From Clostridiaceae bacterium (GTDB taxonomy: Bacteria; Bacillota; Clostridia; Lachnospirales; Lachnospiraceae), in assembly GCA_910575585.1 (NCBI GenBank), contig CAJTGF010000050.1:1-39271 (forward strand): a stretch of DNA of 39,271 bases, in the 5' to 3' direction. A model generated the notes under the pieces. The model ran no database searches. It had not been told where the DNA came from and saw nothing but the letters and a program-made list of their open reading frames with translations. Made by a program: the position numbers and the translations under genes. Shown one piece after another: positions 14,045-38,815 of this stretch. Within the stretch, counting starts at the first letter, position 1. Every line of letters starts with the position of its first letter.

Positions 14045-14259
14045 TTCTTTTTTCTCCTTTTCTCTTAAAATTTGGGGGAGGATAACGCTGAACTTATGAA
14101 AAGTCAAGCGGTTTTCCATCCCTGGATATATATTTAAAAATATATTTTTATATCTAAATGCTTGTTTACAAGCAAGTGAATATCAAAAGAATTATCGTTA
14201 AAATTGGTATTTTGGTATTTGATTCAGGGACAGCCCCAAACCAGATACCAAACAAAATT

Positions 14260-15156
14260 TTATTCTTTAATATCCACTTCCTTCAGCTCAGGCAATATGT
14301 AATTCGTCCAGACATACTCTGTACGTTTGGGCTTTGGCTGTCCATCCTTTGTAGAAACAGCATGCGCATAGGTATCCATCATTTTATAACAATGGAATCC
14401 TGCCTTAGCCAGATGGCGGTCATAGAGGTAAGAAAAGTTTCCCCTGTATCCGCACAACATGACAGGCCCTTTATACTGGCTCAAACTTTTCGCCAGCCGT
14501 TCATGCTGGTTATTAGACAACATGCCCTTGTAATACACATTGTCCTTGACCGTATCGTTCATATAAGGAGGGTCAGCAAAACAGAAAACATTTTCATCCT
14601 CTTTATACGTTTTCACCAGTTCCAATGCATCACCACAGATAAACTCTATCTGTTTTTCCGTAGCCGCTTTCCGCATTGGATACAGGCATTTTTCCAAAGA
14701 CCGCCTGTATTGCTCCGAAGTTTCATCACTTTGGACAAAACTCCTTCTGGCACTGCTATAACTCATAAAGCAGTCGGCAACCATATATTTGGCCCTGGTT
14801 AGTTCGGTCAAATATATGCAGCTATTTCTTAAAGCTTTATGAGCTTTTTTGAAATTCTCTTTCCCCCTTTTATAATTAAGAATTGTTTCCCAATTCTCAT
14901 TTTCTCGAAGGACTTTGTACAGGTTAATAATATTTCTGTCAAAATCATTCGATATGATTTTATCCGCTGGTGTACTGAATGTGATCGTCCCACCGCCAGT
15001 AAATGGGTCAACCAGAGTTTGGATATTCTTTGGAAAAAAAGAAGAATATACTTTGAACTTTTCTTTCTTTCCCCCTATCCAAGGAAGTCCAACAGGTGCC
15101 AATTGGTTGGAGGTCTCCCCCATAAGGGGAAAACCATTGGTTATGTTATTGCTCAT
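14260..15156 (-). CDS. D12-class (Dam-type) DNA N6-adenine methyltransferase
   Basis: The 298-aa product transfers methyl from AdoMet to adenine N6. Motifs in alpha-class order: LPWIGGKKEKF (motif X region, residues 24-34), DPFTGGGT (motif I, AdoMet binding, 50-57) and FADPPYMND (motif IV, DPPY at 195-198), with a target-recognition region between. I chose ATG 15156 because AAAGGAG lies 7 bp upstream; the frame is open to 15198. It overlaps the upstream unknown gene by 11 bp, so they are probably translated together. No restriction enzyme is recognised beside it. The target sequence cannot be read from the protein. Confidence 0.92.
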   Translation of the reverse strand: MSNNITNGFPLMGETSNQLAPVGLPWIGGKKEKFKVYSSFFPKNIQTLVDPFTGGGTITFSTPADKIISNDFDRNIINLYKVLRENENWETILNYKRGKENFKKAHKALRNSCIYLTELTRAKYMVADCFMSYSSARRSFVQSDETSEQYRRSLEKCLYPMRKAATEKQIEFICGDALELVKTYKEDENVFCFADPPYMNDTVKDNVYYKGMLSNNQHERLAKSLSQYKGPVMLCGYRGNFSYLYDRHLAKAGFHCYKMMDTYAHAVSTKDGQPKPKRTEYVWTNYILPELKEVDIKE

Positions 15157-15847
15157 TGTTTTTCTCTCCTTTCTTTGCGCTCTCCGTGGCCTTTTCAATA
15201 TCCTCTTTACTGAAAAAGCCCGTGGTCATTTTTATACGGATTGACCAGCCCTCATGTCTGCTGGGGCACTGGTAAAGGTTCCGATGGTTTTTATCCGTAC
15301 CTTTCCAAAGAGCGCATAAATCCCCGGCTTTCTCTCTGAAATCTCTTTTTGTCCAGCCACTGTTGACTCCATCCAGAAGGTCTTGTATTTCATTCCATGG
15401 CAGGCAGAAATACGGTTCGCCATTATCATTGAACTTTATTTGTGCTTCTGTGCAGAGGTCTCCGTCTTTCAGATCCCCCTGCCAATGGCTTGACTTATAA
15501 ACTTCAAACAGTGCCGAAATAAGCTGGTTGAAGCTCATTTTTGTATCCACATTGACACCTTTGGTTTTTAATCTTTTCCAGGCGCCATATATCTTTGTGG
15601 CATCTTCTTTGGAGAAAGAAAAGCGTGAATTGCTATTCATTATCTTTTCAATTTCTTTTATGCTTTTTCTCTCTTCCTGTATCAGCTTGGATTTTGGGAT
15701 TATTATTTCTTCATCATAATCCGGGCCGAATTTTGGATTCACACTTAATCTGGGCTTTGCCCCATTGTTGTGTTTGAATATAGCTAATGCAGTTAACCCA
15801 GGCCGCTCCATCTCCAATACAATTTTTTCTTTTGATAAAATTATCAT
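15146..15847 (-). CDS. Hypothetical protein coupled to the adenine methyltransferase (233 aa)
   Basis: I recognise no family. I chose ATG 15847 because an AGGAG site lies 8 bp before it and downstream of the alternative ATG at 15865. The protein is soluble, opens with a beta-rich segment (MIILSKEKIVLEME), has a charged helical region (residues 50-75), and then aromatic, Trp-rich stretches (SSHWQGDL, FCLPWNEIQDLL, SGWTKRDFREKAGDLCALWK). A pair of Cys in LCALW and YQCPS is visible, but no metal motif. Its end overlaps the methyltransferase start by 11 bp, which suggests related roles. Confidence 0.7.
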   Translation of the reverse strand: MIILSKEKIVLEMERPGLTALAIFKHNNGAKPRLSVNPKFGPDYDEEIIIPKSKLIQEERKSIKEIEKIMNSNSRFSFSKEDATKIYGAWKRLKTKGVNVDTKMSFNQLISALFEVYKSSHWQGDLKDGDLCTEAQIKFNDNGEPYFCLPWNEIQDLLDGVNSGWTKRDFREKAGDLCALWKGTDKNHRNLYQCPSRHEGWSIRIKMTTGFFSKEDIEKATESAKKGEKNNEQ

Positions 15848-16270
15848 CTTTTTTTCTCCTGTCATAATTAGATTTTTGTAACGAGCTAAAGCAAGCTCTT
15901 TACACCTCTAATACAAAAGAGATCCGATACCACTTTTGAAATCATAGTCCGTATGGAACGTATGGGGGCTTCAAATAAATTTCTTTCAATTTTTCAAAAA
16001 AACTTTCATTCTGTTCTGTGAAATTACAAGCGGGCCAAAAACTTACCATTAAATTTTCGAGTTCTCTCCGCCCTCATTTGTTTTAACATCCGTTGCAATT
16101 TCTCGAAACTTAATCGCTTGGGTTAAGGCACCCTTGCTTTTGGGGCAGACATAGTAAAATGGGGGTAATGCGTCTATAAGAAACGGGATATCTTCTATTG
16201 GAAATGAGTACCTATACCCACAAAACCGATAAACACTCTCAAGGCACCCCAAAACATTCTGGCATTTTAT

Positions 16271-16356
16271 CACCCTACACAATTAGAGGAAAAATGGAAA
16301 TGTATCCGAAACAGCGGCCCTTTTTGTCCACCCTACTCAAATAGAGCGAAAATAGA
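16271..16356. repeat. Two imperfect 28-bp direct repeats, 58 bp apart
   Basis: CACCCTACACAATTAGAG and CACCCTACTCAAATAGAG head the two copies (16271 and 16329), each followed by a related A-rich end. They could be protein-binding sites. No function is shown. Confidence 0.55.
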
Positions 16357-16401
16357 TTTGGATAGTCATTTTTTCCCTGTCCAAACCATCAAAAACTACT
16401 C

Positions 16402-16430
16402 AAAAACCTTATTTTGGCCAAAAAATAAGG
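16402..16430 (-). terminator. Rho-independent terminator after the 161-aa gene
   Basis: On the minus strand CCTTATTTT pairs with AAAATAAGG around TTGGCC and runs into TTTTTG. It ends the unit that starts with the serine recombinase. Confidence 0.75.
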
Positions 16431-16493
16431 CTATACCATAAAATGATACAACCTTATTGGTGCAGTAGAAGCTCCTATTTTTGACACAACAGG

Positions 16494-16979
16494 TTAATCC
16501 TGCCTTGGCCTGAAAGCTCCATAATCTTTTACTTTAGGATTTCTACCTATTTTATAACTGGTATTTTTGGTATTTTTCAACCGCTTGTTCATTGCCTTTA
16601 AGTAATCCTCAACAGCCGCCCCTATCTTGTTTTCAAGGGAGAGATTGTTGAGGGCGTCATTCCTATGGTACTCCTGTACCCTTGCCATAATACGGCCACC
16701 CTTTACCATGTGGACAGTTTTATGGACTGATGTAACGTTTACAATCGTTACCACCGTTAACGCCCTATGTGCCGCATTGACAGCGATAGAACGGTCAACC
16801 AGTTCCTCAATAAACTGTTCCACAGCCTCCGCCACACTGAAAATATAAGTGGTATTTTCCGTGTATGTGGCTCTTCGTGATAGCTCTATCATAGCAACAC
16901 AAAAACCATCCACTTTATTATAAAACTGGATAACTGTCCCTGACTGCTGGACGTATACAAGATTTAATTGCTTACCCAT
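16494..16979 (-). CDS. Hypothetical protein (161 aa)
   Basis: Family not recognised. Residues 1-85 look like a mixed alpha/beta domain; the middle (SLENKIGAAVEDYLKAMNKR) is probably helical; the C-terminus is very basic (RLKNTKNTSYKIGRNPKVKD) and could bind nucleic acid. GAAAGGGGA lies upstream of ATG 16979. Its start is 2 bp from the stop of the preceding small gene, so recombinase, small protein and this gene look like one operon. Part of the basic tail is encoded by the GGTATTTTT repeat that recurs elsewhere in the element. Confidence 0.65.
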   Translation of the reverse strand: MGKQLNLVYVQQSGTVIQFYNKVDGFCVAMIELSRRATYTENTTYIFSVAEAVEQFIEELVDRSIAVNAAHRALTVVTIVNVTSVHKTVHMVKGGRIMARVQEYHRNDALNNLSLENKIGAAVEDYLKAMNKRLKNTKNTSYKIGRNPKVKDYGAFRPRQD

Positions 16980-16981
16980 AT

Positions 16982-17161
16982 CTATTGAGTCCCCTTTCTA
17001 ATAAATTGACTTTCACAGGCCAGATGGGAGAGTATCTCCACAACTGGTTTTAGGTTTTCTGGTGTTATGGTCTTTAAATCTCTGATTACCATAACATTGG
17101 AAACCACTTCTCCCCCTGAATCATTGTTAAGATTTTCAATTAATAAGCTAATAGCATACAT
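16982..17161 (-). CDS. Small hypothetical protein (59 aa)
   Basis: I chose ATG 17161 (MYAISLLIENLNNDSGGEVV) because AAAGGGG lies 8 bp upstream; in-frame ATGs at 17167 and 17179 are too close to or upstream of that site. It is soluble and acidic, with no recognised motif. It sits between the serine recombinase stop (14 bp away) and the 161-aa gene (2 bp away), so it is part of a tight operon. Confidence 0.6.
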   Translation of the reverse strand: MYAISLLIENLNNDSGGEVVSNVMVIRDLKTITPENLKPVVEILSHLACESQFIRKGTQ

Positions 17162-17175
17162 AAACATATCCCCTT

Positions 17176-17838
17176 TCAAAAATCAATTTCTTCCTGCTTT
17201 TTACGTCGGTAGAACGTTGAGCGACTTATCTTTAATAGCTGGCAAGCCCGCTCTACAGACAATTTACCTTCAGCAACTTCCTTTGTAAGCTGCTCCCAGT
17301 CACTTAATTTTTTTAGTGGTCTGCCTTTATAGCGTCCCTCTCTTTTGGCAAGCTCAATTCCTTCTCGTTGTCTTTCATGGATAAACATTAATTCCATTTC
17401 AGACATAAGCGCCATGAAATTATAAAATAACTGCCCCATCTTGGAACTGGTATCAATCCCTTGATTGAGGGCAACTATATTCACCCCCATTTCTTTTAGT
17501 TTAGAGGACAGTTCCACCAGCTCTTTCAAATTGCGCCCTAATCGGTCAATGCTTATTACCATGACCGTATCGCCAGGGCGTAGTTGTTCCATCATCTTTT
17601 GGAACTCTGGCCGTTTCATGTTACGCCCGGACAGCTTGTCCTCAAAATAAACATTACATTTATCTTGAAGGGCTTCCTTTTGTCTGGCAGAGTTCTGCTC
17701 TTTGGTGGACACTCTGGCATACCCAAAAATCATCCCTTTTGGTTGTGTCAATATATCATTTGACTTACCAAAATTCGTGTCGTTATTCTGTGTCAATATT
17801 CCGTTATCTTGTCCCAATACTCCATAAGGTTCTGTCAT
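17176..17838 (-). CDS. Serine recombinase (resolvase/invertase family) with an N-terminal extension
   Basis: Small serine recombinase of 220 aa. The catalytic domain (about residues 36-170) has IFGYARVSTKEQN with Ser44 as nucleophile, and ISIDRLGRNLKELV, GVNIVALNQGIDTSS and FIHERQREGIELAK. A C-terminal helix-turn-helix (SVERACQLLKISRSTFYRRKK) follows. ATG 17838 has AAAGGAG 7 bp upstream. Family members normally start near the IFGYARVS strand; here 35 extra residues, repetitive in ILTQ/GQDNG, precede it. The DNA coding for them carries repeated GTCAATAT motifs that look like recombinase sites. A -10-like TATAAT lies at 17922-17927 (minus strand). It could resolve element dimers or invert DNA. 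Confidence 0.93.
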   Translation of the reverse strand: MTEPYGVLGQDNGILTQNNDTNFGKSNDILTQPKGMIFGYARVSTKEQNSARQKEALQDKCNVYFEDKLSGRNMKRPEFQKMMEQLRPGDTVMVISIDRLGRNLKELVELSSKLKEMGVNIVALNQGIDTSSKMGQLFYNFMALMSEMELMFIHERQREGIELAKREGRYKGRPLKKLSDWEQLTKEVAEGKLSVERACQLLKISRSTFYRRKKQEEIDF

Positions 17839-17981
17839 AAAATGCTCCTTTCTCTTTTTGATAAAGAATGTACTTTTTCAACTGGATACCTATAAACTTA
17901 TAAAATATTGAATCTCATTTAATTATACTTTTAGAGCAGTGTCATTTGAGTATATCAAAATACCTGGGGTCAATATTTGAC
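17747..17981. promoter_or_regulatory. Candidate res-type site: dyad GTCAA...TTGAC motifs over the recombinase 5' end
   Basis: A perfect dyad GTCAATATTTGAC lies at 17969-17981. A spaced dyad (GTCAA-N8-TTGAC) lies at 17747-17764, and related half sites lie at 17792 and 17811. Resolvases often bind such dyads next to their own gene, where they recombine and autoregulate. Which sites act as crossover or accessory sites cannot be told. Confidence 0.45.
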
Positions 17982-18123
17982 ATAACCCATTTACAGCAGT
18001 TTCATAAGCCTATATCAAAAATCAACCATTGTTGGCTTGGACTCATGAAATACTTGTTGACAGTGTTCCAATATTTCATAAATTTAATTTGACATACATT
18101 ATGGAGCATTTTTATTAGATAAA

Positions 18124-18170
18124 CATAAAAAATACAACATACACCTTATAAGCATATGTTGTATTTATGT
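18124..18170 (-). terminator. Rho-independent terminator after the downstream cell-wall-repeat gene
   Basis: On the minus strand AAATACAACATA pairs with TATGTTGTATTT (18155-18166 with 18130-18141), followed by a T-rich run. It lies about 85 bp beyond the stop of the gene at 18251. The remaining AT-rich stretch 17839-18123 holds only the recombinase leader. Confidence 0.75.
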
Positions 18171-18250
18171 ATCTTTATATTTTAGTGTTTATTTTGAAAA
18201 ACATAAACCTTTTAATTTCTTAATTTTAATTGATTGAAAATTATAATTAA

Positions 18251-18928
18251 TTAAAAACCCGGAAGCATTGGTCCTTTTGCCATCTCATCTGCTAAGTCTA
18301 AAAATTCTTGTGATGGGTTGAAATCACTACCTTCATTATCATAATTATAGTAATCTGAAACGTAATAAGTTTGTCCACCAATATTAATCGTTTCAGGCGT
18401 CTTTTCTTTATTGCCTACTTTATGACTATTCTTAAAACTACTTGTATATACGCAGTTACTATTGTCTATATTTACCTGTGTTAAACCATAAATACCTTGA
18501 AGTCCAGTTACGCCTTCTTGATTCTTGATCTTAGCAAAACTTCCTCCATGGGATGATTCTAAGTCTAAATAAACTCCGTCATAGGCACCACTCTTGTATC
18601 TTAACATACCATAGTAGCCATTGTGTGAGGTTTCTAAGCTATAGATATTTCCTGTCTGGTCTTGTACCAGACCAGTACTCACCATGTTTCCAGTTGCATC
18701 AATTAAATACCAGATATTTTGACCGTTAGATTCTACTGCATCATCACATAACCAGGCGTTTTTCACTACATTACCATTGTTGTCCCTTACCTTCCAGTTT
18801 CCTTGGGAGTCTTGGAACCAATATTCGCTGAAGGTTGGTGTGTTTGCATATGCTGGCATACAAAACATATAAACAAATGATAGTGTTATGATTGATGTTT
18901 TTAGTAACTTGTTTAGTAGTTTTCTCAT
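18251..18928 (-). CDS. Secreted cell-wall-repeat protein, paralogue 2 (225 aa)
   Basis: I chose ATG 18928 (MRKLLNKLLKTS) because AAAAGGAG lies about 11 bp upstream; the frame is open to 18955. There is a signal peptide (residues 1-28, likely cleavage after AYA). Next comes a CW_binding-type repeat segment (FSEYWFQDSQGNWKVRDNNG, WLCDDAV, IWYLIDATGNMVSTGLVQD), then a conserved domain ending CVYTSSF. The core is nearly the same as in the neighbour at 19000-19677. After CVYTSSF the two proteins diverge completely; this one ends in a Tyr/Asp-rich tail (VSDYYNYDNEGSDFNPS). No catalytic domain is recognised. It is probably an exported surface or secreted factor carried as cargo. Confidence 0.85.
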   Translation of the reverse strand: MRKLLNKLLKTSIITLSFVYMFCMPAYANTPTFSEYWFQDSQGNWKVRDNNGNVVKNAWLCDDAVESNGQNIWYLIDATGNMVSTGLVQDQTGNIYSLETSHNGYYGMLRYKSGAYDGVYLDLESSHGGSFAKIKNQEGVTGLQGIYGLTQVNIDNSNCVYTSSFKNSHKVGNKEKTPETINIGGQTYYVSDYYNYDNEGSDFNPSQEFLDLADEMAKGPMLPGF

Positions 18929-18999
18929 GTTTCTCTTTCTCCTTTTAAGTATCATACTTTAGACCTAAGCTGAAAATCAATTGAGTATATTAACTACTT

Positions 19000-19677
19000 T
19001 TAGTGCCAGTTCCATTCTTCCCCTGTGAGGTACCCCACTGGTCTACGTGTTGAATCATCCATGCTATCTAGTAATTTTTGCATTTCTTCTTGTTTCTTTC
19101 TTTCATAGTCCTGTTTCTCTTTTTCATAATCAGACATATTGCTAGAAGGTGTAGTATTATTCGTATTGTTCGACCCATTTACTGGGCTACTATTTCTAAA
19201 ACTGCTTGTATATACACAATTACTGTTATCAATGTTTACTTGGGTTAATCCATAAATAGCTTGAAGCCCGTCTACACCTTCTTGATTCTTAATCTTAGCA
19301 AAGCTTCCTCCATGAGATGATTCTAAATCCAAGTAAACTCCGTCATAGGCGCCACTCTTGTATCTTAACATTCCGTAGTATCCGTTATGACTTGTCTCTA
19401 GACTGTAAATGTTTCCTGTTTGGTCTTGGACTAAGCCTGCACTTACCATATTTCCATTGGAGTCTATGAGATACCAAATGTCTTGACCATTCGATCCAAC
19501 TGCATCATCACATAACCAAGCATTGGTAACCATATTACCATTTTGGTCTTGGATATGCCAATTACCTTGGTTATCTTGATACCAATATTCACTAAAAGTA
19601 GAAGCATAGGAGAGTAGTGACATGGATAAACTCATACCCATCGCCAGCCCTAAAACCTTTAAACCTTTCCTTCTCAT
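19000..19677 (-). CDS. Secreted cell-wall-repeat protein, paralogue 1 (225 aa)
   Basis: ATG 19677 follows AGGAGG by 10 bp. The signal peptide is MRRKGLKVLGLAMGMSLSMS with likely cleavage after SYA. The core (residues about 27-165) almost matches paralogue 2: repeats FSEYWYQDNQGNWHIQDQNG, WLCDDAVGSNGQDIWYLIDS, then GAYDGVYLDLESSHGGSFAK. The tail differs: an Asn/Thr/Ser linker (NGSNNTNNTTPSSN), a charged helix (YEKEKQDYERKKQEEMQKLL) and an aromatic end. It lies 72 bp upstream of paralogue 2, so the pair looks like a recent tandem duplication. A terminator-like hairpin in its leader suggests attenuation. Confidence 0.85.
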   Translation of the reverse strand: MRRKGLKVLGLAMGMSLSMSLLSYASTFSEYWYQDNQGNWHIQDQNGNMVTNAWLCDDAVGSNGQDIWYLIDSNGNMVSAGLVQDQTGNIYSLETSHNGYYGMLRYKSGAYDGVYLDLESSHGGSFAKIKNQEGVDGLQAIYGLTQVNIDNSNCVYTSSFRNSSPVNGSNNTNNTTPSSNMSDYEKEKQDYERKKQEEMQKLLDSMDDSTRRPVGYLTGEEWNWH

Positions 19678-19720
19678 TTCTTATATGTCCTCCTTGAACC
19701 ATATTTTCCCTTTTGATGTA

Positions 19721-19766
19721 GAAAATTAAAAAGCAAGGTGCCAGGTTCCCTCCCCTCACACCTTGC
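19721..19766 (-). terminator. Terminator hairpin in the leader of the cell-wall-repeat genes (possible attenuator)
   Basis: On the minus strand GCAAGGTG (19759-19766) pairs with CACCTTGC (19733-19740) and is followed by TTTTTAATTTT. It lies about 45 bp before the start of paralogue 1. A TATAAT-like box lies upstream at about 19829-19834, so transcripts from there would meet this terminator first. Confidence 0.6.
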
Positions 19767-19870
19767 CGACCTTTTAAGTACAACAAATAAACCCCTAGCC
19801 CTCAAATATCTCTTGTCTAAAACTCCAACATAGATTATAATGTAAGGGCATAGTAGTGGTAGCTGCCATT

Positions 19871-19933
19871 GTGAGAAGTGTTCGCCAAAACACTTTTCAC
19901 ACCTCTTTGAGTGCTGACACACTCTTAGAGGTG
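19871..19933. repeat. Two adjacent palindromes upstream of the cell-wall-repeat genes
   Basis: Palindrome 1 is GTGAGAAGTGTT (19871-19882) against AACACTTTTCAC (19889-19900). Palindrome 2 is CACCTCTTTGAGTG (19900-19913) against CACTCTTAGAGGTG (19920-19933). They abut and lie just upstream of the probable promoter. They may be regulator binding sites or structured RNA. Confidence 0.6.
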
Positions 19934-21309
19934 CTATGCTTTTCAATTTTCTATCCTTATCTTATCATGGAAAGCATTGTATTTCAAGATTTATCTTCCC
20001 ATAAATGCTATTTTACAATCATATGTACCATCATCTCCCCTCTTTTCTATCTGCTCATATCTTAACGCTGTGGGTCTGGTCTGTCAGTAGGGGGATTCAC
20101 CAGAAATAACCATAGGGATTTGGTGAGAGTGTAGAACAAAAGCTCTACTTTAACGAAATAAACAGTAACAGCATAATATATTCTAACTGTAATAGAATAT
20201 ATAACATAATAAAAACACAGTTTTTCTATCATGCTAGACCAATTCTTTCTATAATATAATGTCCCAAATTAACAGCTTTACATCTATCTTTGAAGGGGAC
20301 AGTTCTTTATATCAATTCTTTATCTCGACCTCATGCTCATAATAGTGACCGGATTTCCTCTTGTGATTTTATGCAAATATCGTTTTTCAGAGGTAAACAG
20401 AATCTTTTTGATTTTTCCATAAAAAAACCATGCAGTCAAACATGGCTTTTCTATCTGAAATCATATCCGCATCGCAACGTCCATCTGCTTTTGAGCATCC
20501 ACATTTCCGTAATCTATCTATAATCGAAAGCAGGTTCAAAATTGGTATTTTGGTATTTTATTAATCAGATCCCCATCGCAACGTCCATTTACCTTTGGGC
20601 ATCCATTCTTTTCATAAAAATATCCCCAATCACAAGACATGTTCAAAGCCGGTTTATGTCTATTTTTACTCCATATCCCTCTATTATCCCATATCATGCC
20701 CCCTTAGTCCTATTCTTCCCTCTTTTCCCCATCCATTCCCTTGGGGGTGGTCTCTCTTCTCTAGTGGGGTGGGGGTGGTCGCTTCCTCTAGTGTGTTGTG
20801 GGGGGAGAGGTGATACCTTTAAGAAAGAAAAAAGCCAAAAAAAAGAAAGAACACTTTATTACAACACCACGCTCTTTGGATAGGCACCATTAGTAAACCT
20901 GGTTTTTAAGTTTTTTTACACTTTTTACTATATTTTTTCGATTTCTTTCTCATACCGTCACAATCTTACCCTTTTTTATAAATCTTCCTTTCCAGCCCGC
21001 CATGTATCCCCTGAAACCAATCCCCTTGGACAACCTCAAAAGTTCTCACTGTACCCTTATTTTTTGCTCATGCCAGCCACTTTTAAAAACCCTTTAAAAT
21101 TGTCCGGCCCCACCACACATATTTTTTTTGAGCTGAAAACAGCCCCTCTGCACCCCATTTTTTCTGTCACTGTTCCTATAAAAATAGGACCAATGCTTAC
21201 CCTGATTTTCTACGTAAAAATCCCTTATCTTTTTCGGCCATTTTGAAAATCCAACACCCCAGCCACCAAAGAAAATCATCCTCCATCATATTAAACGGAT
21301 ACCACATAC
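19934..21309. other. Gene-less 1.4-kb stretch of the element
   Basis: No frame here has both a ribosome site and a plausible protein. It holds a perfect 10-bp hairpin (20176-20185 with 20193-20202), a 32-bp direct repeat (20470 and 20574), a GGTATTTTGGTATTTT motif (20541-20560) shared with other gene ends, and a G-rich tandem repeat (about 20742-20795). The plus strand is C/T-rich with many short homopolymers. It could be a decayed gene region or a cis-acting region such as an origin; nothing decides between these. Confidence 0.5.
20470..20605. repeat. 32-bp direct repeat, two copies 104 bp apart
   Basis: Copies at 20470-20501 and 20574-20605 begin CATCGCAACGTCCAT and differ at four positions, all transitions. 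They flank the GGTATTTTGGTATTTT motif. With only two copies and such long spacing, this is not a CRISPR array. Confidence 0.7.
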
Positions 21310-21362
21310 AAATAAGCAGAGGGACCAGACCCTTGCCTGATGTCTTTTCCCTCTGCTTATTT
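21310..21362 (-). terminator. Terminator of the DUF5688 operon
   Basis: AAATAAGCAGAGGGA (21310-21324) pairs perfectly with TCCCTCTGCTTATTT (21348-21362). T-rich sequence follows on both strands, so it may act both ways. It lies just beyond the stop of the gene at 21385. Confidence 0.8.
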
Positions 21363-21384
21363 TTGGTATTTTGGCATTTCTTAA

Positions 21385-21918
21385 TCAGATATCAAGGTAA
21401 ACCATTCCATTTTCTAACACACTTGGAATACTGGGAGTTAACTTCCCTTTTACCTGTGTTCTTAACAGGTCTCCATATCCAGCCCCTTCCAAAACCTCTT
21501 TCAGATAATGTACATATAAGTCAATCAGTTGCTCCACGTTCTTTACGTCCTGTATATTCTCTAAGGTTAAATCCGCCACGGTTTCATTATTCATAAGAAA
21601 CCTTTTACTAATACTGATTGTCAGACTGTTACCATATTGATTCATAAGTTTCACCGTCTCCGCCACCTTTAACAGCCACTCCATAGAGGGCCTTCCGTCA
21701 TCAAATGTCCAATGCATGTTTTTCTTATTGTCCAGCCCCACATAAGTACCGGTATTTGAAAAATCAAACAGGTCATTTTCATACATCGCATTGGTTAATT
21801 TTTCAAGCCCTTTCTCCGTATCTGCGTAAATATCAAATAAACCTGCATAAAGATATTTTCTGCCTGTCTCCCCTTCCCTGTTGATAGTCAGATCGCTTAT
21901 CATTAATTCACCCTTCAT
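21385..21918 (-). CDS. Hypothetical protein (177 aa)
   Basis: Family not recognised. ATG 21918 follows AAAAGGGG by about 8 bp; an internal ATG at 21903 is possible. The product is soluble, without signal peptide, mixed alpha/beta, with aromatic-acidic stretches (YLYAGLFDIYADTEKGLEKL, MHWTFDDGRPSMEWLLKVAE). It is the last gene of a minus-strand group with the winged-helix-like, DUF5688 and single-span genes. Confidence 0.7.
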   Translation of the reverse strand: MKGELMISDLTINREGETGRKYLYAGLFDIYADTEKGLEKLTNAMYENDLFDFSNTGTYVGLDNKKNMHWTFDDGRPSMEWLLKVAETVKLMNQYGNSLTISISKRFLMNNETVADLTLENIQDVKNVEQLIDLYVHYLKEVLEGAGYGDLLRTQVKGKLTPSIPSVLENGMVYLDI

Positions 21919-21976
21919 TTTCTTATCCCCTTTTCACTCTGTTTATTTTTGGTATTTTTGATATGAGGAGGCCGCT

Positions 21977-22534
21977 TTATGCGACCTCCGCCTTGTTATT
22001 CTCTTTTTCTTTCTGCTCCTTTTTCTCCTTTTTACCGCCAGCCTCTTTTTTCTCATTTACAGGTTCTTTTTCTACTTCTTCCCCTCTGGCCTCTGGTGCC
22101 TGTTCCGTACCAGAAACTTCCCTTTCCTTTCCAAAATCCTCCAATTCCCAGATAGACGCCTCCAGGCTGTTGCTTATCTCATTTAACTTACTGATAAACT
22201 GTAAATCGTTTTCCTTTAATTGAAGGGCGTTTACCATGCACATTTTATCTAAATCCGTCTTAAACTTATGAAATAATGCCGTTACCCTTTCCTGCATGTT
22301 CTGGTCTTTTCCAGCAATCCCTTTCTTATATTTCCCCCTTGTCACTACCTCCATTTCGCCAGAAGCCGTCAGCATTTTGATTGCCCCCGCAATCACACCA
22401 TCGGTCATTTCTTCCTTTCTCTCTGCCTTTTCCTTAATTTCGGCAACCAGTTCCTTTCTGTCGTACTCCCTGCCATTCTCCATGTAACCTCTGATAACGT
22501 CCTTTGCGATCTCACTTAATGATTTCATACACAT
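21977..22534 (-). CDS. Probable winged-helix protein with a charged tail (185 aa)
   Basis: ATG 22534 has AAGGAG about 9 bp upstream. Residues 3-70 (SLSEIAKDVIRGYMENGREY, MTDGVIAGAIKMLTASGEME, VVTRGKYKKG) have the helix-helix-helix-strand pattern and 'new helix then strand with basic turn' of a small winged-helix domain (HARE-HTH-like); this is a pattern call, not a family match. Residues 75-125 are helical. The last 50 residues are almost all Glu and Lys and probably disordered. It could be a DNA-binding regulator of the element. Confidence 0.65.
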   Translation of the reverse strand: MCMKSLSEIAKDVIRGYMENGREYDRKELVAEIKEKAERKEEMTDGVIAGAIKMLTASGEMEVVTRGKYKKGIAGKDQNMQERVTALFHKFKTDLDKMCMVNALQLKENDLQFISKLNEISNSLEASIWELEDFGKEREVSGTEQAPEARGEEVEKEPVNEKKEAGGKKEKKEQKEKENNKAEVA

Positions 22535-22625
22535 ACTGTTTTTCTCCTTTTTTATATTATTTCTTAACTCTATGCCTATATCATAACGCTGGGATTTCTT
22601 CCCGTCTGTGGTGTAATCGCCGGAA

Positions 22626-22674
22626 AAGGCATAGCTGAAATGTACGGATTAGACAGTATTTTCAGCTATGCCTT
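22626..22674 (-). terminator. Perfect 15-bp hairpin between the DUF5688 and winged-helix genes
   Basis: AAGGCATAGCTGAAA (22626-22640) pairs with TTTCAGCTATGCCTT (22660-22674). On the minus strand TTCC follows, a weak T-run. It may cause partial termination or protect the mRNA end. Confidence 0.55.
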
Positions 22675-22700
22675 GTTTCCCTATTATAGAATCCTGTTTT

Positions 22701-23627
22701 TTAAATCATTGTCATAAGATTTTTTTCTCTGCTGTACAGATAAACATTGTCAGATAAAATATCCGTTTTTGAAACTTCCGTCCGGTTTATATGTTCCACC
22801 ATTGCTTTCATTTCTTCTATATCATGTACCTTACTATTGGGAACCAGCAGAACCTCATGGATACTGGAGGGCAGGATTATAATATCTTCCTTTATCCGCT
22901 CCGCAAAATCTTTTAATATATCTTCATATAAGACAACCGCCGCTCCATAGACTCCACAGGTATTCCCCAATATATACAAAGAGGGATCCAGGCCACAGGA
23001 AAGAAAATCTTCCAAAATCCCCTTTACCTTTTTCTTTTTACTCCTTTCGTAATCTTTTATAATCTCTATCATAACTTCCTCCATAGTGCGTAGAGAAGCA
23101 GGAAACAGTCTTTTCGTATTTTCTCTGGCCAGCTCATAGAACTGATCCACACCCTTTTCCCATACCTTTGTATGTTCATGAAGGATTGGGCATGTTGACT
23201 GTCCCTTTTCATTTCTTTCTACCATCACATGAAACGTAATAGCTAAATCCAGATAGGGGATATGTGGGATATCTTTAAGCAGTTCCAGATTTTTTTCATA
23301 GTTCACCAGCTTATAAAATATCTTGTCTTTTGCCTGTTCCCAATCCCCCAGTCCATCCAAGGGGTAATTTGGATTTTCAAGCGTATTAAACATATCATAG
23401 ATATCATCCGCCAACTGTTTCAATGGCATTCCCTCCCGATAGGCCATATAATAAGAATCCAAACCGATTGTTACCCACTCCTGGCTGTCTGGACGTCTCC
23501 CCTGTAAAGAAGTCATAAACACCCCATTATTTATCTTTACTTTCTCCACATTTACAGTAAGCCTTCCCTCAAACCGGCTCACCTGTTCTTTTTTCATATA
23601 CGCTACAAATTGACGAAAACGAATCAT
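22701..23627 (-). CDS. DUF5688 family protein (308 aa)
   Basis: The N-terminal third has the layout I remember for DUF5688: VNVEKVKINNGV, then GLDSYYMAYREGMPLKQLAD followed by DIYDMF, then alternating helices and strands to a C-terminal domain with IIILPSSIHEVLLVP and SDNVYLYSREKNLM. The family is common in Lachnospiraceae accessory DNA and has no known function. ATG 23627 starts 4 bp after the stop of the single-span peptide gene, so they are translationally coupled. It is probably soluble, with no signal peptide or membrane span. Confidence 0.82.
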   Translation of the reverse strand: MIRFRQFVAYMKKEQVSRFEGRLTVNVEKVKINNGVFMTSLQGRRPDSQEWVTIGLDSYYMAYREGMPLKQLADDIYDMFNTLENPNYPLDGLGDWEQAKDKIFYKLVNYEKNLELLKDIPHIPYLDLAITFHVMVERNEKGQSTCPILHEHTKVWEKGVDQFYELARENTKRLFPASLRTMEEVMIEIIKDYERSKKKKVKGILEDFLSCGLDPSLYILGNTCGVYGAAVVLYEDILKDFAERIKEDIIILPSSIHEVLLVPNSKVHDIEEMKAMVEHINRTEVSKTDILSDNVYLYSREKNLMTMI

Positions 23628-24347: not shown

Positions 24348-24392
24348 TAGTAGCGGAAGGGAGATTTGAACTCTCGACACTACGGGTATGAA
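24348..24392 (-). other. Attachment site within tRNA-Met (right end of the element)
   Basis: Identical over 45 bp to 12071-12115. It covers the tRNA from the anticodon loop to just past the discriminator base. The element end restores the tRNA, so the gene stays functional. Confidence 0.92.
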
Positions 24393-24424
24393 CCGTATGC
24401 TCTAGCCAACTGAGCTATTCCGCC
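24351..24424 (-). tRNA. tRNA-Met (anticodon CAT)
   Basis: A full cloverleaf: acceptor GGCGGAA/TTCCGCT, D-arm GCTC...GAGC, anticodon arm TACGG-TTCATAC-CCGTA, and T-arm GAGAG-TTCAAAT-CTCCC. CCA is not encoded (CTA follows). It lacks the initiator features, so it is elongator Met; a lysidine-modified tRNA-Ile read through CAT cannot be excluded. Its 3' half is the element's integration site. Confidence 0.93.
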
Positions 24425-24442
24425 ATATGATATTTTGTGGTA

Positions 24443-24515
24443 TGGGGCCTATAGGGCTCGAACCTATGACCCTCTGCTTGTAAGGCAGATGCTCTCCCAG
24501 CTGAGCTAAGACCCC
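24443..24515 (-). tRNA. tRNA-Val (anticodon TAC)
   Basis: Acceptor GGGGTCT/AGGCCCC, D-arm GCTC...GAGC, anticodon arm TCTGC-CTTACAA-GCAGA, T-arm ATAGG-TTCGAGC-CCTAT. CCA is only partly encoded. It is transcribed ahead of tRNA-Met from a shared promoter. Confidence 0.95.
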
Positions 24516-34734: not shown

Positions 34735-35760
34735 CTATGGTGTAGTTTGGCTGTGGCGGTCTTGGTCCATAAGGAGCGCCTGTTTTCTGACCCGCTCCTT
34801 TATCTGATCAAGGAAGACCTTTGGTCCCAGGACCTTTACCACCGGGCCGAAGGACAGCACCTGGATCAGCAGTTCGGTTTCCCACCGCTTGTCGTAGTAA
34901 ATGGTGCAGCGGTAGGTGTTGGAGTCCTTTAGCCGCTCCACTTTTTTCTGGTAGCAGGAGAAGTGGAGCATGGCCCGTTCCAGGGCATTGCGTTTGGTGG
35001 TGATATCAAGGACTAAAGGTTCCTGACAGAAGGCATTGTCTAAAAATCGGTCCACGTCAACGGGGAAGGGGAAATAGGAATTGGTCTTTTTTACGGACAG
35101 GATCCTTGCTGCATTGAGGATATCCATCCGCTGCCTGCCGGTTTTGGTCAGCGACATGGCGTAAAGACGGAATTTTCCGTCCCGCTGTCCGTACTCCAGG
35201 CGGCAGGGAAGGAAGGTCCGGGTCAGGATGCGGTCTTTGCGGGATAGGTAGTCTATGGATAGGAAACGCCTTTGGGGAAGCGCTTCCAGGATGGTATGCA
35301 TGTGCTGGCGGTACATGACAGAGGAAAAGGGGTCGTGGTCCTTGTACTGGTCAAACAGACAGAAGTCTGACATGCGAAAGAGCGGGGCGGTATCCGACAG
35401 GTATCCCTCCAGTGTTGTCAGCTGCTCATCGGTGAAAAACAGGCGGATGCGGGGATCGGACAACAGGGCTTTCAGCCACGATCTCTGCAGGCGGGTCAGG
35501 GGCTGGGGGAAGAGAGGGTGTTTCAGGGCGCAGGCGTATGTGGGGGGAACGGTGTTTTTTCGGCACAGAAACGGCCACTCTCCTTCAATGAGCCGGGGAA
35601 CGATAGAAAGGGCGCTTTCGCCGTAGCCGTGTTTCTGGGCCAGGTCTTCGATCTGGCGGCGGGTTAGTACCTGGCGGGAAGCCTCATCAAGGATCTTGGC
35701 CACTACCTGGTAGTAGCAGGTATAGAGTTCGGAAAACAGAGGAAGGTCGGTTGTATTCAT
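34735..35760 (-). CDS. WYL-domain protein 1 (341 aa)
   Basis: The N-terminal third is helical (LFSELYTCYYQVVAKILDEA, RRQIEDLAQKHG) and may be a winged-helix-type segment. Residues about 155-240 have the beta-rich WYL layout (RRFLSIDYLSRKD, TFLPCRLEYGQRDGKFRLYA, RQRMDILNAARILSVKKT). The last 70 residues match the WYL C-terminal extension (YRCTIYYDKRWETELLIQVL, PVVKVLGPKVFLDQIKERV). WYL domains bind nucleotides or nucleic acids and often control RNA-repair, CRISPR or DNA-damage genes. It lies 33 bp after the other WYL gene, as one operon. Confidence 0.85.
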   Translation of the reverse strand: MNTTDLPLFSELYTCYYQVVAKILDEASRQVLTRRQIEDLAQKHGYGESALSIVPRLIEGEWPFLCRKNTVPPTYACALKHPLFPQPLTRLQRSWLKALLSDPRIRLFFTDEQLTTLEGYLSDTAPLFRMSDFCLFDQYKDHDPFSSVMYRQHMHTILEALPQRRFLSIDYLSRKDRILTRTFLPCRLEYGQRDGKFRLYAMSLTKTGRQRMDILNAARILSVKKTNSYFPFPVDVDRFLDNAFCQEPLVLDITTKRNALERAMLHFSCYQKKVERLKDSNTYRCTIYYDKRWETELLIQVLSFGPVVKVLGPKVFLDQIKERVRKQALLMDQDRHSQTTP

Positions 35761-35793: not shown

Positions 35794-37041
35794 TTAGTCT
35801 TCCCGGGGATCCATATAATAAGCCTGCATCATCTTCATGTCATCCCAAAACCGATTTTTTACAGCGGCATTGGAGCAATGAAAGGCGCGGATCCTGCCGG
35901 TAAAGCTTTTGATCCAGGGAAGAAGCTCCATTGCGTCAAGGCAAAGGCATTGATATTCATAGACGCCGGGCTCCAGCCGTTTCAGCCAGCCGCCACGGCC
36001 TTCCCGCTCTAAGCGTGTCAGAATATAGTCCTCCTCGGTCTCGTCCAACAGGATCTCCATGGATACTTTTTCCGGTTCTTTCGTTTGAACGTTTCCCAAC
36101 GAGACTCCCCATATATAGGGCGATGCGGCATCCAATGATTCCATGTGCTTGTCATAGGCTTCATCCGTTTGGAGAAGTTCCACATTCTGAATGGAGTCCA
36201 GGCGGACAGAGGAGATCCGGCAGTTTTTTTCCTGCGTGACACAGACGTACCGGCGGCCGGTCTGGGCGCTGGTAAGGATCTTGAGAGGGGTAACGGTCTG
36301 GGTCTGCGCCCGGCCTGTTTTGGTGCTCTTTACGGTGATGAGGATTTGGCGTTTCTGCTCTATGGCGGTCAGGATGGGAAGAAGAATCTCATCTTCCAGG
36401 GTATGGATCAGGTAATCGCTGCGGAAGCGGAAATACTTGTTTTTTTGATCCCAGAAATCCAGGATGGCGCTGCCGATGAATCCAAAGGGAGCGACGCCCT
36501 GGAAAAAGCTGACACCCAGGGTCAGCGCCGGAAAAAGGGAGGGGTGGGTAAAGGACACAGGGGAAGGCATGCGGTAGAGATACTGCTTTCCCTGTTTTTC
36601 CTTTGCAATCAATCCCTCTTTTTCATACAGAGCCAGCTTCCGCCGGATGGTCTGGGTGTCAAAAAGCTGCTTATAGTTTTCCTGGATCTGGTCGGCAATG
36701 GTCTCCAGGCTCCGTGGCTTTTGATCGGAGAGCAGGTCTGAAAGAAGGAAGCGCAGGGTGATGTCGTTGTCCGTAAATGTTTTTGACCGCCAGGCTTGGT
36801 ACAGAGGATTAACGGCCATGCGGCTGGAATCCAGGGTGAGGAACACGGACTTTTTGTGGCCGTTTTGGTCACAGCGGATATAGTCCCCAAACCAGCTTTC
36901 CATGCGGCGGCGCTGATTGTCGTAGGTTCTGCCGCTTTTTTCCTGAAAGTCGCTGCGGGTCTTAAAGCCATAGATATAGAAGTCACGGACATAAGAGCGG
37001 ATCTTATCAAACTGTTTGATGAGTTCTTTGTATTGAGACAT
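35794..37041 (-). CDS. WYL-domain protein 2 (415 aa)
   Basis: I chose ATG 37041 (MSQYKELIKQFDKIRSYVRD), with AAGGA about 11 bp upstream; the frame is open to 37197 but that would run through the promoter. The N-terminus has a segment (RSDFQEKSGRTYDNQRRRME) typical of large paired WYL regulators, then a winged-helix region (SLETIADQIQENYKQLFDTQ, RRKLALYEKEGLIAKEKQ). Residues about 265-345 form the WYL domain (RQILITVKSTKTGRA, VTPLKILTSAQTGRRYVCVT), with a WYL C-terminal extension after it. It is divergent from the structured-RNA/SPFH region. Confidence 0.85.
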   Translation of the reverse strand: MSQYKELIKQFDKIRSYVRDFYIYGFKTRSDFQEKSGRTYDNQRRRMESWFGDYIRCDQNGHKKSVFLTLDSSRMAVNPLYQAWRSKTFTDNDITLRFLLSDLLSDQKPRSLETIADQIQENYKQLFDTQTIRRKLALYEKEGLIAKEKQGKQYLYRMPSPVSFTHPSLFPALTLGVSFFQGVAPFGFIGSAILDFWDQKNKYFRFRSDYLIHTLEDEILLPILTAIEQKRQILITVKSTKTGRAQTQTVTPLKILTSAQTGRRYVCVTQEKNCRISSVRLDSIQNVELLQTDEAYDKHMESLDAASPYIWGVSLGNVQTKEPEKVSMEILLDETEEDYILTRLEREGRGGWLKRLEPGVYEYQCLCLDAMELLPWIKSFTGRIRAFHCSNAAVKNRFWDDMKMMQAYYMDPRED

Positions 37042-37116: not shown

Positions 37117-37199
37117 CAGGGCGGCTGCCACAACCTGGAAAACTTCGCAGAGTTTTTGAAATGATAAGCATTCTGGTGTGTGGTAGTATAAAGACACCG

Positions 37200-37720
37200 A
37201 AGAGGTGATGGTTCCGGCTTACAGTTAAGGCATTTTCGCCTGACGGTGCCGCTGCGATGCAGTACGGTATGCCGCCGGAGGCATGAAAAGACGTTCAGTT
37301 TGGGACTGAAAATGTCAAAGGCTTGATTTACGTGGGTTCGAATCCCACCGGTGAAAACCGTTGCTTAGTGGTAAAGCAATCAAAAGGCGCCTGTCACGCG
37401 TCCACAGGAAAGAGGAAGACGTGGAGACCGCCAGTTAAGTTTTCCTTTTGGCGAAAGGGGATGGATCAAGCGGGACATCTGCTTTCACACAAAAGGAGAC
37501 AAAACAGCAGAAAATGTGCCAGCGCCGCCTAAAAGGGCAGAGAAAAAGGCATCCCATGTCCCATGGTGGGGAGAGAAAACGATCCACGGGAAGCCGGATG
37601 CCGGACGCCTGGCTGGAGGGATGGCCCGCAGCGTTTTTTGCGGCGGTTTCCAGGTTGGAATCGCAAAGAAAGAGCAGTCAGACCATTGATAGGAGAAGGC
37701 TCATGTGAAGGAGGGATATC
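37200..37720 (+). other. Structured non-coding region between the WYL operon and the SPFH gene
   Basis: No convincing gene in 520 bp. Apart from the permuted tRNA-like fold, hairpins are seen at 37294-37310 (TTCAGT/ACTGAA), 37390-37408 (CCTGT/ACAGG) and 37429-37454 (CGCCA/TGGCG). The phrase CAGTTAAG occurs near 37222 and 37433, each followed by a short hairpin, so a second related RNA is possible. The region would be transcribed toward the SPFH gene. Confidence 0.55.
37294..37408 (+). ncRNA. Y RNA (YrlA)-like RNA with a circularly permuted tRNA fold
   Basis: Read 5' to 3': TTGATT (37323-37328); T-arm GTGGG-TTCGAAT-CCCAC (37332-37348); CGGT-GAAA-ACCG (37349-37360), a short acceptor-like stem closed by a GNRA-type tetraloop; TT; D-arm GCTT-AGTGGTA-AAGC (37363-37377); then AATCAA (37378-37383), which pairs with TTGATT. 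The order is 3' half then 5' half of a tRNA, joined through the acceptor end, with the anticodon stem open. That is how I remember the tRNA-mimicking module of bacterial Y RNAs (YrlA), partners of Ro/Rsr. AGGC (37319-37322) and GCCT (37389-37392) may extend the basal stem. The ends are not determined. Confidence 0.72.
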
Positions 37721-38815
37721 ATGAAATATCAGATCAACCAGAATCAGTGCGGATTTTTGATGAAGAACGGGCGTTTTGTGGGAACGCTTGCCAGCGGAAC
37801 TTACCATTTTATGAAGGCTCTGGGCTACGAAGTGGCGGTGGAGGATATGGAGGGGACCGTGAAGTTTGGCGCAGCGCCTAAGGAGATTTTGCTGCGGGAA
37901 GATAAGGCATTTGCGGAGAAAGCGCTTCACGTCTTGATCCCTGAGGGGCATATCGGTATCTTGAAGGAGAACGGAGTGGTAAGAAAGGTCCTGACGGAAG
38001 CGGAGTATCTGTACTGGAATGTGTGGAACCGATACAGCGTGGAACTTCTGGACATGAGGGAGCCGGAGGCGGCGGGGAAAGTGAACAAAGCCTATCTGGC
38101 GCAGATTCCTTTGAAATATTATAAAAAAGTTGAGATACAGCCGGGGGAGCTGGGCATCCTGTACTACGACAACCAGGTGGTAAAGGAGCTGCAGACGGGA
38201 ACATACTACTACTGGGTATACGCAAAGGATGTGGTGTGCAGGATTGTGGACTTGAAGATCCGGCCTTTGGAGATTTCCGGTCAGGAGATCTTGACGGCGG
38301 ACAGAATCGGGGTGCGGGTGAACCTGATGTGTACATACAAGGTGGTAAAGCCGCGGATCATGATCGAGACCATCAAGAACCTGGAAAATCAGGTTTACGC
38401 CTGCGTGCAGCTGGCCATCCGGGAGTATATCGGGAGATACCGGCTGGATGAGCTTCTGGAGCAGAAGGAGGAGATCTCCCAGTTTATCTTTGGCAGGCTT
38501 AAGGAGGTCCAGGACGATTACTGCGTTGAGTTTTGCAGCGCAGGGATCAAGGACATCATTTTGCCGGGGGAGATCCGGGATATCATGAACACGGTGCTGG
38601 TGGCCGAGAGAAGAGCCCAGGCCAACGTGATCACCAGAAGGGAGGAGGTGGCTTCCACCAGGTCGCTTTTGAATACGGCGAAATTGATGGATGAGAATAA
38701 GACGCTGTATAAACTGAAGGAAATGGAGTACCTGGAGAGGATATGCGCCCAGGTGGGAAGCATCCAGGTAGGGGGCGGAGCGTTGTTGGAGCAGCTGCGG
38801 GAGTTGGTCAGGTGA
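37721..38815 (+). CDS. SPFH/band-7 (slipin-type) protein without a membrane span (364 aa)
   Basis: The start has GAAGGAGGG about 6 bp before ATG 37721. Slipin-like core: residues about 130-280 with VEIQPGELGILYYDNQVVKE, TYYYWVYAKDVVCRIVDLKI, VRVNLMCTYKVV, and YIGRYRLDELLEQKEEISQF, then the helical AGIKDIILPGEIRDIMNTVL, ERRAQANVITRREEVASTRS region that assembles SPFH oligomers. Residues 1-110 repeat a similar strand pattern (IPEGHIGILKENGVV). Most slipins have an N-terminal membrane hairpin, but none is seen here. Soluble slipins of this kind are described in bacterial RNA-repair gene sets with RtcB, Ro and Y RNA, which fits the RNA upstream. Confidence 0.88.
   Translation: MKYQINQNQCGFLMKNGRFVGTLASGTYHFMKALGYEVAVEDMEGTVKFGAAPKEILLREDKAFAEKALHVLIPEGHIGILKENGVVRKVLTEAEYLYWNVWNRYSVELLDMREPEAAGKVNKAYLAQIPLKYYKKVEIQPGELGILYYDNQVVKELQTGTYYYWVYAKDVVCRIVDLKIRPLEISGQEILTADRIGVRVNLMCTYKVVKPRIMIETIKNLENQVYACVQLAIREYIGRYRLDELLEQKEEISQFIFGRLKEVQDDYCVEFCSAGIKDIILPGEIRDIMNTVLVAERRAQANVITRREEVASTRSLLNTAKLMDENKTLYKLKEMEYLERICAQVGSIQVGGGALLEQLRELVR

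Follow-up and report, generated by a model that had tools for sequence, protein, structure and literature searches.

The window, by which we mean the whole 39,271-nucleotide stretch of DNA analyzed here, is one entire contig of a source genome of 6.1 Mb (253 contigs, 96.9% complete). It contains a putative RNA in the intergenic region between a divergent gene for a WYL-domain regulator and a gene for an SPFH/Band_7 protein (table 1); the companion gene of the regulator has no Pfam match of its own. The locus is common to relatives labeled Hungatella, Lachnospiraceae and Clostridiaceae, among others. Among the eight relatives with a homolog of the intergenic region, seven keep the gene order WYL-RNA-SPFH and have a WYL ortholog at the locus, the eighth being a contig edge just upstream of the RNA. 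Elsewhere in the window, integrase-like, Dam-like methylase and resolvase-like genes in the open reading frame list (12740-23627) suggest an integrated mobile element, close to the tRNA genes at 24351-24515.

Table 1. Genes and RNA elements of the WYL-SPFH locus, in window positions.
Feature	Positions	Strand	Remarks
Companion gene of the WYL regulator	34735-35760	-	341 aa; adjoins the WYL gene in relatives
WYL-domain regulator, divergent	35794-37041	-	415 aa counted from ATG; Pfam WYL 21.8 bits, exactly the cut-off
Conserved block TTCGCAGAGTTTTTGAAATGATA...GGTAGTATAAAG, candidate promoter and regulator site	37144-37193	+	in the gap separating the WYL gene from the RNA
Whole structured RNA or leader	37194-37660	+	conserved in 9 genomes of the genus; predicted ends
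5' domain GGTTCCGGC...GCCGGAG	37210-37280	+	conserved motif GGTGC-N-GTATGCC at 37245-37273
Optional hairpin GACGTTCAGT/ACTGAAAATGTC	37290-37316	+	in 8 of 9 aligned genomes; absent from G006
Permuted tRNA core, closing stem TTGATT/AATCAA	37323-37328 / 37378-37383	+	seen directly, folded and aligned
T-arm GTGGG-TTCGAAT-CCCAC	37332-37348	+	inside closing stem
Acceptor hairpin CGGT-GAAA-ACCG	37349-37360	+	4 bp, GAAA-capped; inside closing stem
D-arm GCTT-AGTGGTA-AAGC	37363-37377	+	inside closing stem
Anticodon-arm mimic GGCGC-CTGTCAC-GCGTC	37386-37402	+	loop equals the tRNA-Asp(GUC) loop of the source genome
Long-range stem, 5' strand GGAGACCGCC	37423-37432	+	pairs with 37642-37651
Long-range stem, 3' strand GGCGGTTTCC	37642-37651	+	pairs with 37423-37432
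SPFH/Band_7 protein gene	37721-38815	+	364 aa; Pfam Band_7 1.4e-27

A permuted tRNA core within a longer structured RNA

An earlier note on this DNA had described a T-arm, a GAAA-capped stem of four base pairs and a D-arm, all closed by TTGATT/AATCAA, and had read them as a tRNA split at the anticodon, with its acceptor ends joined. Every one of these elements is found at 37323-37383, in the order T-acceptor-D within one closing stem, in agreement with that reading, and folding of 37319-37404 with RNAfold returns the same structure plus a fifth hairpin, the anticodon-arm mimic of table 1. The arm pairings are kept in relatives: across 18 clostridial sequences, 95.1% of cells are paired, compared with 31-47% when the partners are slid, and 11 of the 24 pairs are altered on both sides. 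In a shuffle test using five measures, the observed value was reached by 0 of 500 shuffles on four, and the fifth, further pair types, did not rise above the shuffles (286/500). The weakest helix is the closing stem (82% of cells paired), part of whose loss is explained by misalignment, as one relative (L042) carries GATTGA/TCAATC in its place. The folding energy of 37319-37404 is ordinary (z -0.66; an equal or better fold is seen in 49 of 200 shuffles), so that stability alone proves nothing, and it is the comparative conservation that carries the case and that establishes, at the level of sequence, both the fold and its retention.

When both strands of the 39-kb window were scanned, the module pattern matched exactly once; when upstream regions of relatives were base-shuffled, it matched 6 times in 1560. 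At 37270-37359, overlapping the T-arm and acceptor hairpin, ARAGORN predicts a tRNA-Pro, and the Rfam tRNA model does not pass there. In 68 of 115 modules, the acceptor hairpin is followed by a UA linker, corresponding to U8-A9 in tRNA. We considered whether the element might be a functionless remnant of a tRNA locus or mobile element, as its tRNA-derived parts and the nearby tRNA arrays of some Bacteroidota could suggest; the compensatory changes, kept gene order and invariant loops speak against this reading, the probability of which we regard as close to negligible.

The limits 37294-37408 proposed earlier do enclose the structure, but the conserved stretch is far longer, beginning at 37144 and reaching about 37660 in an alignment of nine genomes, and the segment 37191-37680 folds better than its shuffles (z -4.38, 0/100). 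The module is thus part of a conserved stretch with predicted structure, about 450 nt long, which ends approximately 60 nt 5' of the SPFH gene. A DNA search of 60 relatives (E below 1e-10) returned homologs of the region in 8 of 25 genomes of the same genus and in 0 of the other 35, and the motif of the 5' domain recurs in 19 of 20 module-bearing clostridial loci (0.35% in base shuffles). The long-range stem is paired in 89 of 90 cells in nine sequences, with two positions changed on both sides. We found no Rfam family for this RNA: nothing but ordinary tRNAs exceeds the gathering score in the window, and a scan of eight relatives returned only tRNA (in three of them over parts of the units) and a lysine riboswitch.

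Occurrence beside SPFH genes, copied anticodon loops and the Y RNA question

Species genomes were scanned with an alignment of the SPFH protein, which yielded 182 stretches encoding a relative, and the best 80 were taken, representing 78 distinct loci. In 68 of these 78 loci, which span several phyla, a permuted module lies on the strand of the SPFH gene and no more than 1.5 kb ahead of it, compared with 27 matches of the same pattern in 1.75 Mb elsewhere in the loci, several of which carry tRNA arrays. The ten misses are contig edges (L045, L110), loci in which upstream T-arms are present and the module pattern is incomplete (L054-L056, L064, L092, L098), and loci with no T-arm on the scanned upstream strand (L052, L058). 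Clostridial loci (L033-L057) have a single module in 20 cases and none in 5; of the 49 loci labeled Bacteroidota among the best 80 of 182, 37 have at least two modules within 900 nt, eight have one and four have none. Single modules also occur in a Spirochaetes record (L060) and a Sebaldella record (L063). In several Flavobacteriia (L062:3514-4937, L105:2350-4374, L065, L067, L073, L091, L108), the permuted RNA is preceded on its own strand by 11-16 ordinary tRNA genes; the 3' ends of these array tRNAs are mostly CAA, as are those of other tRNAs in three of the genomes.

Proteobacteria encode the same SPFH family at 30-33% identity over nearly the full length. Upstream of the SPFH gene in E. 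coli and Citrobacter, a T-arm and a capped hairpin can be read by eye together with a degenerate D-arm; in Photobacterium (L195:3662-3799), two tRNA-like units of normal order (54 and 46 bits) precede the gene; and in Burkholderia (L194:3636-3740), a GAAA-capped stem, also read by eye, replaces the anticodon arm of a normal-order unit. These sequences suggest that the permutation belongs to some lineages only and that tRNA mimicry is present in nearly all that we looked at. Of 5426 complete E. coli genomes, 1621 contain no less than 80% of the sequence that precedes the relative SPFH gene.

Within 299 Lachnospiraceae genomes, a covariance model of the module matches 23 and an SPFH profile matches 16, with 13 genomes having both, three SPFH alone and ten the RNA alone (Fisher p 3e-14). 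The ten genomes with the RNA and without an SPFH gene at the cut-off used include some with other downstream genes. In L153, L156 and L157 (minus strand), the module precedes a conserved protein of at least 435-477 aa, clipped by the end of the locus; a Pfam scan of the L153 protein gave no hit at E up to 1, and RtcB (L153, L157) or WYL genes (L156) lie upstream of the RNA. In L158, a YrlA-like permuted module (1487-1582, 45.7 bits) is followed from 1772 by a gene for a DUF2828/DUF7788 protein, which we take to be Ro-like and which may be an alternative partner for the same RNA module.

The fifth hairpin of the window RNA, GGCGC-CUGUCAC-GCGUC, begins two bases 3' of the closing stem and hence lies outside it. 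With five pairs and a loop of seven bases that includes U33 and A37, it has the hallmarks of an anticodon arm; the loop of the tRNA-Asp gene is kept and the stem differs. The form GACAC-loop-GUGUC is present in 14 of 17 clostridial relatives. Among relatives, the loops CUUCCAA and CUUAAAA equal the Gly(UCC) and Leu(UAA) loops of the source genome. An anticodon-like hairpin lies within 60 nt of the last D-arm in 43 of the 68 loci with a module (base shuffles, 4.8%), the other 25 having none by the same test. As judged from sequence, the loop is identical to a tRNA loop of the source genome or of three flavobacterial genomes in 28 of the 68 loci (shuffles, 0.07%), or in 29 of 68 with a wider tRNA reference list, the types being Asp, Met, Lys, Leu, Phe, Gly, Ser, Tyr and Asn. 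In L144, L146 and L148, the anticodon-like hairpin 3' of the permuted module is directly followed by a second T-arm, a further shuffling of tRNA parts.

The hairpin follows the D-arm after 1 nt, the spacing of a real tRNA, in 22 loci, so that the final unit of these loci resembles an entire circularly permuted tRNA whose acceptor end is sealed. Permuted tRNA genes are known in some algae and archaea, and the order of the arms and the true anticodon loops would fit a gene of this kind that is processed into a working tRNA. We nevertheless consider such a gene extremely unlikely given that in the window the acceptor stem has four pairs rather than seven, the GAAA loop seals the end with no 3' CCA, the anticodon arm of the window RNA lies outside the closing stem rather than in a cloverleaf, and the source genome has ordinary tRNA-Asp genes.

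The earlier note had taken the RNA to be probably a Y RNA, that is, a bacterial RNA of the YrlA type working with a Ro/Rsr protein. The two do share a design, since in the Rfam alignment of YrlA (RF02553) the T-arm, capped acceptor and D-arm follow in the same order within one closing stem, and weak YrlA matches (28-54 bits) occur in 11 of the 12 relatives scanned for them, L053 having none; the Ro-like DUF2828/DUF7788 protein behind the RNA of L158 would also fit. However, the YrlA covariance model gives the window 32.1 bits, and all scores of the window and its relatives fall below the gathering score of 69 bits. The model aligns poorly outside the tRNA-like module, reaches nearly the same score (31.5 bits) at a cluster of tRNAs in the source genome, matches weakly in 13 of the 14 control genomes (E up to 1) and has no match at E up to 0.1 in five plasmid-record loci. 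The window RNA further differs in that its conserved stretch is roughly four times as long as the YrlA model, with an extra anticodon arm and other domains, and in the lack of a detectable Ro protein: TROVE (PF05731) was not found in the source genome, in a search that was positive in 1 of 14 controls, nor in the other eight searched genomes that carry the RNA. TROVE was found in 1 of 61 genomes, which had no RNA match, and a DUF2828 search returned no match in the source genome and none in any control genome either. We conclude that a Y RNA is very unlikely, and that the second reading offered by the earlier note, a related permuted tRNA mimic, is the better supported.

Neighboring RtcB and WYL genes

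RtcB was detected by tblastn in 27 of the 78 loci (from the best 80 of 182), many of which are cut short. It is also found in 13 of 20 fetched Lachnospiraceae RNA loci, ten of them with the order RtcB-RNA-SPFH; the same 20 loci, covering about 1.5 kb on each side of the RNA, contain SPFH in 13 cases, one of them partial, and three (L151, L158, L160) have none of SPFH, RtcB and WYL in this interval. No RtcB or other ligase gene lies beside the window locus, the sole RtcB match of the source genome being elsewhere and of another type; in two close relatives, an RtcB-like gene, recognized by its sequence and by tblastn, lies behind SPFH at a distance of about 5 kb (L029) and about 9 kb (L031). 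The Citrobacter gene of this SPFH family is divergent from rtcR, the activator of RNA repair, and a nucleotidyltransferase gene also adjoins; in E. coli, SPFH likewise adjoins a nucleotidyltransferase gene. The E. coli neighbors were inspected in one chromosome and one plasmid-labeled record. In one E. coli locus (L212:4530-7416), genes for slipin and a nucleotidyltransferase lie between yjbD and lysC and are followed by a zeta-toxin family gene, and this locus is possibly a variable defense island.

The block between the WYL gene and the RNA has no consensus sigma-70 site on the plus strand. Its pattern, [TC]TCGCAN1-3TTTTT, is joined by a promoter-like stretch and is tied to WYL: among loci with a WYL gene, 15 of 20 have the pattern no more than 1.1 kb ahead of SPFH, as against 2 of 58 loci without one (base shuffles, 0.1%). 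Among the remaining WYL loci, three (L047, L048, L050) have the block upstream of RtcB instead, one (L056) has it just beyond 1.1 kb, and only L038 lacks it; the block thus shifts to the front of RtcB where RtcB comes first. We infer that the WYL protein may act on it. By genome comparison, then, SPFH is the usual neighbor of the RNA and RtcB a frequent one, with a promoter-like block linked to WYL. The earlier note, which was correct on the core structure, had missed the anticodon-arm mimic, the long-range stem and the link to SPFH and RtcB. The RNA belongs to a widespread group encoded beside SPFH genes and often RtcB; its probable role lies in the response to damaged RNA and is not that of a Y RNA.

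Proposed function and relation to known systems

We hypothesize, with somewhat better than even confidence, that the locus produces a tRNA-mimicking RNA of about 450 nt, which functions together with the SPFH protein encoded directly downstream, in a system that handles cut tRNA by RNA repair of the RtcB type. The RNA would present the tRNA elbow, formed by the T and D loops, and an anticodon hairpin. Having no free acceptor end, it would be neither charged nor used in translation, a use that the sealed end should rule out by any known route. The SPFH protein would bind the RNA, probably as a ring; toward enzymes that cleave, modify or repair tRNA, the RNA would act as a scaffold, bait, competitor or docking partner; RtcB would reseal cut RNA; and the WYL regulator would turn the operon on under stress. 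The copied anticodon loops on changed stems, the tRNA elbow and the company of RtcB together point to enzymes that handle cut tRNA. Counting against the proposal are the window locus, which has no RtcB, the ten of 23 RNA-bearing genomes without SPFH at the cut-off used, and the 25 of 68 loci in which the test returned no anticodon-like hairpin.

Three published observations bear on this proposal. Hughes and others suggest that YrlA, through its tRNA-like domain, may competitively inhibit an anticodon nuclease (PMC7790460); in Anabaena, rtcB, a slipin gene and an operon of 26 tRNAs are repressed by TrcR, and antibiotics that block translation lift this repression (PMC10272220); and in Pseudomonas aeruginosa, an SPFH gene lies inside the rtc locus (PMC13086221). 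In light of these, we favor a trans-acting tRNA mimic held by SPFH, the main rival being a cis-acting leader in which the tRNA mimic is the 5' untranslated region of the SPFH mRNA and controls SPFH, for example by binding an enzyme that modifies or cuts tRNA or by being cut or processed itself. The same-strand position of the module upstream of SPFH in the sampled loci would suit a leader, as would the long-range stem, which stops about 57 nt short of the SPFH ribosome-binding site, and the lack of any terminator-like site on the plus strand between the RNA and the SPFH gene, which makes a purely cis role possible. However, the tandem modules and anticodon arms of many Bacteroidota exceed the needs of a leader, and in some Lachnospiraceae the RNA precedes unrelated proteins, namely the DUF2828 type of L158 and the other family of L153, L156 and L157; on balance, we judge the leader rather unlikely.

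Predicted models of the SPFH protein show three beta repeats, then the SPFH domain, then a long helix. Band_7 matches all 29 of the SPFH proteins tested, and no vault model is among the families listed for these 29 proteins at E up to 1. We also raise a broader possibility, which we hold tentatively and expect to be wrong sooner than right: a widespread bacterial ribonucleoprotein resembling a small vault, in which a repeat-bearing SPFH cage would surround a mosaic RNA of permuted tRNA units with genuine anticodon loops. The RNA would be bait or a docking site for tRNA-cutting enzymes, and RtcB would mend both this RNA and real tRNAs; the RNA would form a large, new class that no Rfam 15 family covers, occurring in gut clostridia, in Bacteroidota and, with the order altered or normal, in Proteobacteria including many E. 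coli.

A literature search, thin on subscription journals, returned no description of the permuted order, the tandem modules, the true anticodon loops, the WYL-linked promoter block or the vault-like build of the SPFH protein. If true, our interpretation would link the role of SPFH proteins without an evident membrane anchor, the tRNA-mimic RNAs in RNA-repair operons and the bacterial sensing of cut tRNA. The sealed acceptor and copied anticodon loops are a direct, testable sign of use as a decoy or scaffold, and RNAs of this kind are overlooked or misread by tRNA finders and Rfam.

Among known systems, modules of SPFH/Band-7 proteins with a "novel tRNA-like molecule" were reportedly named by Burroughs and Aravind, writing in NAR in 2016. 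The window locus likewise has a tRNA-like RNA beside an SPFH gene, and the two have in common an SPFH/Band-7 protein, a tRNA-like noncoding RNA and an RNA-repair setting; an RNA ligase, RtcB, is present in 27 of the 78 loci, and the window locus itself has no ligase gene. The vault particle is composed of MVP, vault RNA and TEP1. Taken as a whole, the predicted model of the SPFH protein may share with MVP the beta repeats, an SPFH-like shoulder and the long helix, and the putative partner RNA would be a further parallel; however, MVP has a long row of repeats and the SPFH protein only three, and the N-terminal repeats alone match MVP weakly. The TrcR regulon of Anabaena differs in that TrcR is a ribbon-helix-helix repressor, whereas the window locus has a WYL protein, and in that the accessible text of PMC10272220 mentions no such RNA; it resembles the proposed system in placing a slipin gene, RtcB and tRNA genes under one stress-linked control.
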